A stretch of DNA of 63,216 nt. Source: Archaeoglobi archaeon JdFR-42 (GTDB lineage: Archaea; Halobacteriota; Archaeoglobi; Archaeoglobales; JdFR-42). Positions 3,214 to 15,468 of this stretch are shown one piece after another; position 1 is the first letter of the stretch; each line of letters starts with the position of its first letter. Position numbers and translations under genes: made by a program. Where the stretch lies: positions 1 to 63,216 of the forward strand of contig MTND01000031.1 of the NCBI GenBank assembly GCA_002010305.1, written 5' to 3'. A model generated the notes under the pieces. It was not told the origin of the DNA and ran no database searches. It worked only from the letters and a program-made list of their open reading frames with translations.

Positions 3214-4053
3214 GTGATACGGCCCTTTGATCCATGGAAATCAAAGATGTGTACATGCCCTCCCAAATTTTCCCTCTCTCCCTATACTGGATGTGCTCAT
3301 TCTTGCTTATACTGTTATATCACTTCCTATATTCCAGATGCCTTCAGGCCAAGGCTCAAACGAGATGTGATTAACCATGTTAAAAAAGATTTGAGGAAAA
3401 TACCTAGTACTTCTCTGATTTCCATTGCAAACAGTTCAGACCCATATCAGCCCTTAGAGTTGAAACATCAGATTATGAAACGTTTACTGCCCATTTTAAA
3501 AAAACACAGGGTGCTGATAATCACCAAATCAGATATTGTTAAAAGGGACTCTTCGTTGCTGAAGGAAATTGGCGCATCAGTCTCTATTACCATTACAACG
3601 GATGATGATGACCTTGCAAAAGTACTGGAACCTGGAGCTCCCCCTCCAAGAAAACGCATTAAAGCGCTAAAAAGATTAGTTGACAAAGGAATCAGAGTAA
3701 GTGCGAGGGTAGATCCGATCATTCCATTTTTGAATGAAGATGTGAACCATCTTATAGAGGAGCTTTCTGTCGTGGGAGTAAGTCATGTAATCTCATCCAC
3801 CTACAAGCTCAGATACGATTCATGGAACCGATTGAAAGCCGTATTTCCCGAGTGTGAAAGAATGTCTACTTTATATTTTAAGGGAGGAGAGTGGATTGGA
3901 GGTTCTCTGTATCTTCCAGCTGAAATTCGACGAAAAATACTTTTGAAAATCAAGCAATATGCTGAAGAGAAAGGAATGACATTTTCATGTTGCAGAGAAG
4001 GATTACCATGGACCTCCCCGTCCTGTGATGGGTCCCATCTGATTGAAAAGTGA
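3214..4053 (+). CDS. SPL-family radical SAM protein
   Basis: This 279-aa protein belongs to the spore photoproduct lyase-like (SPL) radical SAM family common in archaea. The CxxxCxxC cluster-binding motif is at residues 27, 31 and 34 (YTGCAHSCLYCY), preceded by the conserved RPFDPWKSK. Later landmarks are NSSDPYQPLE, the SARVDPIIPF strand and a C-terminal CxxG-type stretch FSCCREGLPW that may hold extra ligands. The function of these non-spore relatives is unproven; DNA repair is often assumed. The frame is open from an ATG at 3130, but the GTG at 3214 matches where the family homology begins. It ends 28 bp before the epimerase gene. Confidence 0.8.
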   Translation: MIRPFDPWKSKMCTCPPKFSLSPYTGCAHSCLYCYITSYIPDAFRPRLKRDVINHVKKDLRKIPSTSLISIANSSDPYQPLELKHQIMKRLLPILKKHRVLIITKSDIVKRDSSLLKEIGASVSITITTDDDDLAKVLEPGAPPPRKRIKALKRLVDKGIRVSARVDPIIPFLNEDVNHLIEELSVVGVSHVISSTYKLRYDSWNRLKAVFPECERMSTLYFKGGEWIGGSLYLPAEIRRKILLKIKQYAEEKGMTFSCCREGLPWTSPSCDGSHLIEK

Positions 4054-13501: not shown

Positions 13502-13646
13502 ACCCTCATATGTTTATGTTACACTTCCATAAACTTTTCTGAATGATTGTAATGTATCTTTTTCAACCTTTTTGTTGGGAGGTTTTGGTCTCTTCCTGAA
13601 CACACCACAACCCTTATATTATCGTCTTCTCAATATCCTGTTCCTG

Positions 13647-14120
13647 ATGAAACAGAAATGGTGGCTGTTGCTGGCCGTAGTGGTTGTGGTAATGATAATT
13701 TTTGTAGCTGTTTTAAGATCTAGTCCAAAGAATAGTTTGGATGAAGATATGTGGATGAGTTATTCCGATGGCTTAGACCTTGCTAGATCGAAAGGGATGC
13801 CTGCATTGATATATTTTACTCAGGAAGGATGTGTTTGGTGTGAACGGCTTGAAAAGGATGTGTTTTCGGATTCAGCAGTAATGAGAAATATTGCTCAGAG
13901 TTTTGTTCTGATTAAAGTGGACATCAATTCTGAAAAGGATCTTACAGCGGAATATGGTGTTAAGGGTACCCCAACACTTTTGATTGTGGATGGTAATGGT
14001 TCGGTGATGGTCCCCGTTAATCATGGGTGGTTTTATGATGGAAAGAATTTCGACAAAAACCAGTTTTTGAACATAATGACTCACATCTATAAGTCTTTGA
14101 GTGAGACTGAGACACAGTAA
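13647..14120 (+). CDS. Membrane-anchored thioredoxin-fold protein (CVWC)
   Basis: The 157-aa protein has an N-terminal membrane anchor (residues 2-22, WWLLLAVVVVVMIIFVAVL) and an external thioredoxin-like domain. The redox motif is CVWC in FTQEGCVWCERLEKDVF, followed by the cis-proline loop GVKGTPTLLIVDG. It resembles the Thioredoxin_7/DsbD-gamma group and probably reduces or isomerises disulfides on the outer face of the membrane. The ATG at 13647 directly precedes the KQK-hydrophobic anchor; the longer frame from 13572 lacks support. It is followed 46 bp later by the thymidylate synthase-like gene. Confidence 0.8.
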   Translation: MKQKWWLLLAVVVVVMIIFVAVLRSSPKNSLDEDMWMSYSDGLDLARSKGMPALIYFTQEGCVWCERLEKDVFSDSAVMRNIAQSFVLIKVDINSEKDLTAEYGVKGTPTLLIVDGNGSVMVPVNHGWFYDGKNFDKNQFLNIMTHIYKSLSETETQ

Positions 14121-14166: not shown

Positions 14167-15468
14167 TTGATGTTAATAGCAGAAGATTTTGAGGAGGCTC
14201 AACAGCAACTCTATTCCAAAATCAGATCAGAAGGCATTTATTCGTCCTCGAGATATGGAGATACAAAAAGAGTTCATAATAGCTTTGTTGTGGTAAAAAA
14301 TCCAGACTTCAAAGATCCTCTGGAACCAGATTCGAGTGGGTGGAAACTAGGTAATAGAGAGAGTTATCTCAGCAGGATTGAAGGATTACTGGATATTGCT
14401 GCGAGAAAGCTGGAGGAAGTGGAGTTTACAAGGCGAGTCTCTTTACCTGTATGGAGGCCATGGGATCATTCTTCTTCCACTCCCCCAGCGATTACTGAAG
14501 TGAGCTGTCTGGTTGTTAATCATGCCATCAATCTTACAGCCTTTATAAGAAGTTTTGATGTAATCAATTATTTCCAGAGTAACGGAAACTTTCTAGCCTA
14601 TCTGATGGAATATCTTGTGGATAAGACCTCCTATAAGGAAGGAACCATTGGTATGATAATTGGTGTACCACATTATTATCTCAGAGACGAAAATAGACTT
14701 TCTGAATCTCAATATGAAGAAGTTTATGGAACAACTCCCTATGGTACACACCTCAAAGAACGGTATTTATCTTCTGCTTGGCATCAGGCCCTTCATGAGA
14801 TTTACAATAATGGAATGAAAAAATCCACAGAATGGGGCGAATTGTTTGAGGGCCAGTCAGAGAGCCGGTATATACATCGTTTGATGATTGAAGTGGATGA
14901 AACCGAAGAACATGACATCCATGACAAAGCTCCCTTTTCTCGGGATTATGGAGTTGATTACGCCCATGAATATCTTATCTGTGCAGGATACATAGACAAG
15001 AGAGTTGAAACATCCATTTTAAAGGAAGGAGAGGTGTATTCATACGCGGAACGGGCAAGATACTGTGAGATGGATGATCAGAAAGTAGATCAACTGTATG
15101 AAAGCCTCCTGAAACTCAAAAAAGATAGGTGGAGACGGGATGCCTACGTTGGCATATCAAGACCATGGGATCTGGACCATGATGACCCTCCCTGTCTGAG
15201 AGGATATATGTTTTATGCATCCGGGAAAGATGAATTAACAGGGTTGTTTTACATGCGTTCCAACGATGCATACGGAGCCATGCATGCTAACATGTTTGGT
15301 TTTAATATTCTCACCCGTTATGTAAGAGAATTAACTGGATTTAACAGGCATAAGCTTGTTCATTTCGCACTGGATGCCCATATATATGGCGAGTTCTACA
15401 ATAGTGTTAAGGACCTCTTGTATCCTGATATGCCTAGTTTCAGTGAGGAGATCGCCAGCTCACGTTAA
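14167..15468 (+). CDS. Tandem-duplicated thymidylate synthase-like protein
   Basis: At 433 aa this is about twice the length of an archaeal ThyA. The C-terminal half (about residues 195-433) looks like a complete thymidylate synthase: YSYAERAR, RPWD at 332-335, PPC with the candidate nucleophile Cys343, the dUMP-binding RSND at 364-367, and DAHIY at 403-407. The N-terminal half repeats the order in a diverged form: GWKLGNRESY, RPWD at 97-100, PPA at 106-108 and RSFD at 129-131, with alanine where the nucleophile should be. So one active and one inactive copy appear fused. Whether it makes dTMP, a modified pyrimidine, or is regulatory is not known. Single gene by spacing. Confidence 0.75.
   Translation: MMLIAEDFEEAQQQLYSKIRSEGIYSSSRYGDTKRVHNSFVVVKNPDFKDPLEPDSSGWKLGNRESYLSRIEGLLDIAARKLEEVEFTRRVSLPVWRPWDHSSSTPPAITEVSCLVVNHAINLTAFIRSFDVINYFQSNGNFLAYLMEYLVDKTSYKEGTIGMIIGVPHYYLRDENRLSESQYEEVYGTTPYGTHLKERYLSSAWHQALHEIYNNGMKKSTEWGELFEGQSESRYIHRLMIEVDETEEHDIHDKAPFSRDYGVDYAHEYLICAGYIDKRVETSILKEGEVYSYAERARYCEMDDQKVDQLYESLLKLKKDRWRRDAYVGISRPWDLDHDDPPCLRGYMFYASGKDELTGLFYMRSNDAYGAMHANMFGFNILTRYVRELTGFNRHKLVHFALDAHIYGEFYNSVKDLLYPDMPSFSEEIASSR

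Follow-up and report, generated by a model that had tools for sequence, protein, structure and literature searches.

A tandem thymidylate synthase of Archaeoglobi with one catalytically dead half, probably a fused pseudo-dimer with a single active site

The cross-talk between the two sites of a thymidylate synthase (ThyA) dimer, known as half-the-sites reactivity, is an old question that has been asked by means of hand-built heterodimers with a single working site, and Pookanjanatavip et al. reportedly described subunit complementation with such engineered heterodimers in 1992. Two arginines of ThyA, R126 and R127, belong to a loop in contact with the dUMP phosphate at the site of the other protomer. 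When wild-type and R126E/R127E subunits are combined in a heterodimer, one working site results, which is located in the mutant protomer (PMC5981203). Remixing of subunits has been named as the main difficulty of single-site heterodimers, and covalent linking as a wish (PMC5981203). Trypanosoma brucei thymidine kinase is a tandem pseudodimer with an inactive N-half and an active C-half, according to the passage of PMC5098729 that cites Ranjbarian et al. (2012). The biochemistry of archaeal ThyA has been little studied, and the cofactor use of ThyA in organisms of the H4MPT type is unsettled (PMC9012536). The closest single-domain relatives of the protein described here are the methanogen-type ThyA enzymes (TIGR03283, approximately 220 amino acids), which have the same fold.

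Analysis of a 63,216-nucleotide stretch of contig MTND01000031.1 from Archaeoglobi archaeon JdFR-42 (the whole of which is referred to as the window) showed an open reading frame of 433 codons on the forward strand (14167–15468), which encodes two ThyA domains in one chain; all parts of this gene described below lie on this strand. The frame starts with TTG at 14167. Since an ATG (14170) comes directly after this codon and the corresponding Met2 hardly varies among relatives, the ATG is the likely start, and the gene would then span 14170–15468 (stop codon 15466–15468) and probably encode 432 residues. ThyA profiles matched each half separately, in agreement with the preliminary description of two tandem ThyA-like copies in a chain of 433 residues. 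The whole protein scored above the cut-off of PF00303 (78.4 vs. 24.3 bits) and below the equivalog cut-off of TIGR03283 (126.7 vs. 174.55 bits), which was passed by none of the 59 Archaeoglobi genomes. AlphaFold2 modelled the whole chain with a pLDDT of 92.1 and a pTM of 0.92, and in Foldseek searches against the PDB both this model and that of the N-half matched enzymes of the ThyA fold. A chance origin of the repeated motifs was excluded, since nearly all Archaeoglobi orthologues contain both stretches. A frameshift or MAG artefact was considered as well and ruled out, length and architecture being constant across 44 Archaeoglobi sequences and recurring in contigs of several closed-looking genomes. 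A thioredoxin-like gene is situated directly upstream (window positions 13572–14120). No conserved gene neighbourhood was found; the genes that flank the ThyA gene in the window do not lie close to its counterparts in relatives.

The N-half (residues 2–190; 14170–14736) was assigned as a ThyA domain that is catalytically dead and has undergone an internal deletion, based on TIGR03283, hhalign, AlphaFold2, and Foldseek. The preliminary description had made its identity depend on structure prediction and profile search of residues 1–190. Modelled alone, these residues gave a confident ThyA fold (pLDDT 91.3, pTM 0.88), and the Foldseek matches of this model were ThyA, dCMP hydroxymethylase, and dCMP hydroxylase. 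The same residues matched TIGR03283 with E=1.2e-12 and PF00303 with E=3.8e-4; the latter match, at 20.1 bits, is below the gathering cut-off of 24.3, and because of this weakness the N-half could be overlooked by plain Pfam annotation. An hhalign comparison of 42 N-halves with methanogen ThyA extended over 176 columns (5–207 of 211; E=4.8e-15), and the profiles of the N-half and C-half matched each other with E=6.7e-9. The N-terminal strands and helix are present, and the sole gap relative to single-domain ThyA is the middle segment, which in methanogen ThyA holds WNEERLEEYAKQL. The possibilities that the N-half is a fragment or a chance motif were both ruled out by the full-length profile alignment and the independent ThyA fold.

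At the nucleophile position the N-half carries Ala108 (14488–14490), within the PPA that had been noted to replace the catalytic Cys, and all 44 Archaeoglobi sequences have Ala, Thr, or Ser there (41, 2, and 1, respectively). No Cys was found at this position in 49 sequences (44 from Archaeoglobi and five from carriers outside this class), by which a variable or sometimes restored Cys was ruled out. The phosphate-site residues R128-S129 (14548–14553), equivalent to R166-S167, are invariant. The DxHxY motif had been described as missing, which held for its first Asp only: the position reads V-P-H-Y-Y, with Val in place of Asp, whereas H169 and Y171 (14671–14679) are invariant (44/44). Residue N139 is Asn in 34/44 sequences and Asp or Thr in 10/44.

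The C-half (residues 191–433; 14737–15465) appears to be a catalytically intact ThyA domain, as judged from TIGR03283 (E=5.8e-24), PF00303 (C-half alone, E=1e-16, 61.3 bits), and AlphaFold2, and all eight pocket positions tested in it are invariant. The catalytic cysteine, C343 (15193–15195), was found in 44/44 sequences and in the outside carriers. R364-S365 (15256–15261; R166-S167 in E. coli), D367, N375 (15289–15291; N177 in E. coli), D403, and H405 and Y407 (15379–15387; H207 and Y209 in E. coli) are all invariant in Archaeoglobi; the outside carriers have Asn in place of D403, which is therefore not essential. The nucleophile Cys, RSxD, the N177 equivalent, and HxY were thus each present in 44/44 C-halves, which is consistent with the earlier impression that the second copy is active. 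N177 of E. coli is responsible for the preference for dUMP rather than dCMP. The catalytic set may not be wholly canonical, since no obvious equivalent of R21 was present, an invariant W223 standing there in a region of uncertain alignment, and the position that aligns with a methanogen Glu, a candidate for the general-base Glu (E58) and likewise uncertainly aligned, is variable (Asp or Glu in 39/44, Ser or Asn in 5/44). A motif HDKAPF (residues 252–257; 14920–14937) is invariant in Archaeoglobi and absent from single-domain ThyA; its APF is kept in the outside carriers. It is possibly a lid or interface element.

Comparison of residues 86–108 with residues 321–343, which align in ungapped register, places R89 opposite R324, R90 opposite D325, and A108 opposite C343. 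The N-half has Arg-Arg at R89-R90 (14431–14436), equivalent to E. coli R126/R127, in 44/44 sequences and Cys in 0/44. The C-half has Cys in 44/44 and, at R324-D325 (15136–15141), Arg-Asp in 41/44, the rest being one Thr, one Asn, and one unread residue in place of Asp; in the five outside carriers Asp is replaced by Arg. The combined pattern of RR without Cys in the N-half and RD with Cys in the C-half was found in 41 of the 44 sequences. A ThyA homodimer has two equal active sites, and here Cys occurs in one half only. The arginine pair that a ThyA subunit is lent by its partner (R126'/R127') would be supplied by R89-R90 of the N-half, conserved throughout (44/44). Because R126/R127 act on the opposite protomer, the residues required by the site of the C-half are kept in each half. 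Judged from these residues, the two halves appear to divide the labour, the dead half keeping what a ThyA subunit lends its partner, and the active C-half of Archaeoglobi seems to have lost one of its two lendable arginines. R127 (R179 in L. casei) tolerates many substitutions, so that D325 by itself would not necessarily inactivate the site of the partner.

We consider it probable that the protein is an obligate pseudo-dimeric, single-site thymidylate synthase that arose from a fused tandem duplication and serves as the organism's own enzyme. Two ThyA subunits, fused by an old tandem duplication, would form one chain with a single working site, in which Cys343 of the C-half would attack dUMP while the nucleotide would be held by N375, H405/Y407, and R364/S365 of the same half. 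The N-half, without nucleophile and central segment, would act as the obligate partner, its fold completing the dimer through a ThyA-like interface within the chain. From there, R89-R90 would reach into the C-half site and hold the dUMP phosphate, in the manner of R126'/R127' in E. coli. The C-half would owe the dead site no arginines, and its second Arg could in this way have become Asp in Archaeoglobi. The predicted folds and the complementary residues lend support to the original proposal, in which the chain is a fused pseudo-dimer whose only active site is paired with a dead partner domain.

The protein search covered 59 Archaeoglobi genomes. Matches were obtained in 48, of which 47 were to the tandem family and the remaining one (G016) was to single-domain ThyA relatives only. 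The Archaeoglobi orthologues are about 48–68% identical to the window protein and nearly all full length; 44 of these tandem sequences formed the alignment behind the residue counts. When other genomes of the phylum were searched with the full-length profile, five additional carriers were obtained; they belong to three families outside Archaeoglobi and have ORFs of 475–528 amino acids with the same two-domain layout. Sampling outside Archaeoglobi was limited to the window's own phylum, so that carriers elsewhere are possible, and a single-sequence scan of genome contigs reached close relatives only. No viral relatives were found in a scan of viral contigs.

In a tree of the catalytic cores, rooted by midpoint and with one long single-domain row (L139), the N-halves formed one clade (99/96) and the C-halves another (99/94), and both together were set apart from single-domain ThyA (97/93). 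As the N and C clades jointly exclude single-domain ThyA, one old duplication is indicated, which, going by the sequences, would either predate the split of the carriers or have been shared among them by transfer. Both halves are also one residue shorter than single-domain ThyA in the stretch that leads from the Arg pair to the Cys position (RPWD motif). The N-half evolves faster than the C-half, with mean pairwise identities of 0.48 vs. 0.67.

The suggested survey for ThyA and ThyX elsewhere in the window's genome (2.15 Mb, 99.6% complete) showed the tandem gene to be its only PF00303 gene, and no ThyX was found in it. The 43 Archaeoglobi genomes of good quality (completeness of 90% or more, contamination of 5% or less) included 33 with the tandem gene only, 7 with ThyX only, 3 with both, and none with neither (Fisher p=3.7e-6 for tandem gene vs. 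ThyX, uncorrected for kinship). No ThyX was found in the five outside carriers. On grounds of gene content, this trade-off is good, if indirect, evidence that the tandem gene makes thymidylate. The 3 good genomes with both genes belong to genus g14 (genomes G040–G045), which keeps tandem ThyA together with ThyX, unlike the rest of the class; Cys343 is still present in its tandem copy. Archaeoglobi use H4MPT, and the lack of a DHFR (PF00186) match in the window's genome fits H4MPT rather than folate chemistry; methylene-tetrahydromethanopterin would be the likely carbon donor.

Other features were observed in these genomes. The window's genome contains two McrA-like genes (G000:C26:6862-8496 and G000:C29:7634-9313) that score well below the methanogen cut-off and are alkyl-CoM-reductase-like. 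In the five outside carriers and the window's genome, the McrA-like genes number two to four per genome and score below the TIGR03256 cut-off, which would seem to recall alkane-oxidising archaea. Two divergent mcrA have been described in Ca. Polytropus marinifundus (PMC6474303). A 66-kb contig of another Archaeoglobales bin (G016:C2; L143-L145, G016:C2:1-60000) carries four thymidylate-synthase-like genes, with matches at 3674, 24536, 26391, and 47480, which adjoin a uracil-DNA glycosylase family gene, a helicase, and KaiC/AAA ATPases. This contig resembles a virus or mobile element, whose DNA bases may be modified.

The conservation within the dead pocket bears on whether the N-half of this same enzyme is also a nucleotide-binding regulatory domain, which would bind dUMP, dTMP, or a later product, its emptied pocket tuning the C-half through the shared sheet. 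R128, S129, H169, and Y171, i.e., four of seven pocket positions, are among the 18 of 185 N-half positions that are invariant (hypergeometric p=0.002 vs. the N-half background, with the seven positions being the analyst's choice). They remained invariant although the N-half evolves faster, and in the outside carriers R-S-D-N-H-Y is retained in the N-half, as is RR in the C-half. However, these residues could be structural, in 41/44 Archaeoglobi sequences Asp stands where a partner Arg would be needed to complete the phosphate site of the N-half, the substitutions of N139 (10/44) fall in this pocket, and the first Asp of DxHxY is gone from it; we therefore hold a regulatory role to be possible but rather doubtful. 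It is unlikely that the second site turned into an allosteric nucleotide sensor, with the dead half, whose phosphate/ribose pocket is kept, binding a deoxynucleotide there and controlling the live half; if this were true, the debated half-the-sites behaviour would have been fixed as a regulatory device. Speculatively, the dead site of Archaeoglobi may instead be plugged by D325, which would mimic a phosphate against R128.

Chains that dimerise C-to-C (and N-to-N), or that swap, would give a dimer with extra dead domains. In Archaeoglobi, C-to-C pairing would place the Asp of the RD pair at the phosphate and leave the invariant RR of the N-half without use, while the RR kept in the C-half of the outside carriers would permit such pairing there; a swapped dimer, composed of the N-half of one chain and the C-half of another, would still have the same chemistry. 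Overall, this arrangement is judged very unlikely. Extremely improbable is a nucleotide hydroxymethylase or hydroxylase of ThyA fold in place of a thymidylate synthase. In the Foldseek ranking of the whole model, the dCMP hydroxylases 9iqu/9iqc and the CMP hydroxymethylase MilA stand next to ThyA, and in that of the N-half 9iqu/9iqc came first, but fold similarity at this level is common to the whole superfamily. dCMP hydroxymethylases carry Asp at the dUMP-selecting Asn position, which here is the invariant N375, and the gene shows the trade-off with ThyX described above, most carriers having no other candidate for a thymidylate synthase.

Annotation of the protein as a thymidylate synthase is straightforward; no description of its tandem, half-dead build was found in the literature searched, with subscription journals and annotation databases outside its scope. 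If the single-site pseudo-dimer is real, this ThyA, with one site and its halves covalently joined, would be essential in most of the organisms that carry it; it would thus show that one site suffices, and would provide a ready tool for work on half-the-sites reactivity. It would also clearly exemplify how the two halves of a fused homodimer degenerate in complementary ways. A thermostable, tractable archaeal ThyA for which a carbon donor of the H4MPT type is expected would be useful in itself.

Among the known systems, flavin-dependent thymidylate synthase (ThyX; PF02511) likely performs the same cellular task and replaces tandem ThyA in several Archaeoglobi genera, but is non-homologous. The principle of the fusion would seem, by analogy, to have a precedent in T. 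brucei thymidine kinase, which, as far as the passage cited above describes it, also consists of two fused copies of an oligomeric pyrimidine enzyme, whereas its fold, reaction, and domain of life are unrelated. Methanogen-type ThyA shares the catalytic Cys, RSxD, Asn, and HxY with the C-half and Arg-Arg with the N-half, but has two equal sites per homodimer, whereas tandem ThyA has two domains, one of them without Cys; the single-domain sequences fall outside the joint N and C clade, and the tandem protein falls below the TIGR03283 cut-off. In the engineered ThyA heterodimers, as would be the case here, one site combines the Cys of one half with the Arg-Arg of its partner, and the active half is the one with the altered Arg pair. 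Those heterodimers are two mixed mutants that can remix and have not lost a segment from the dead half, whereas tandem ThyA is natural, covalently joined, and has undergone such a loss.
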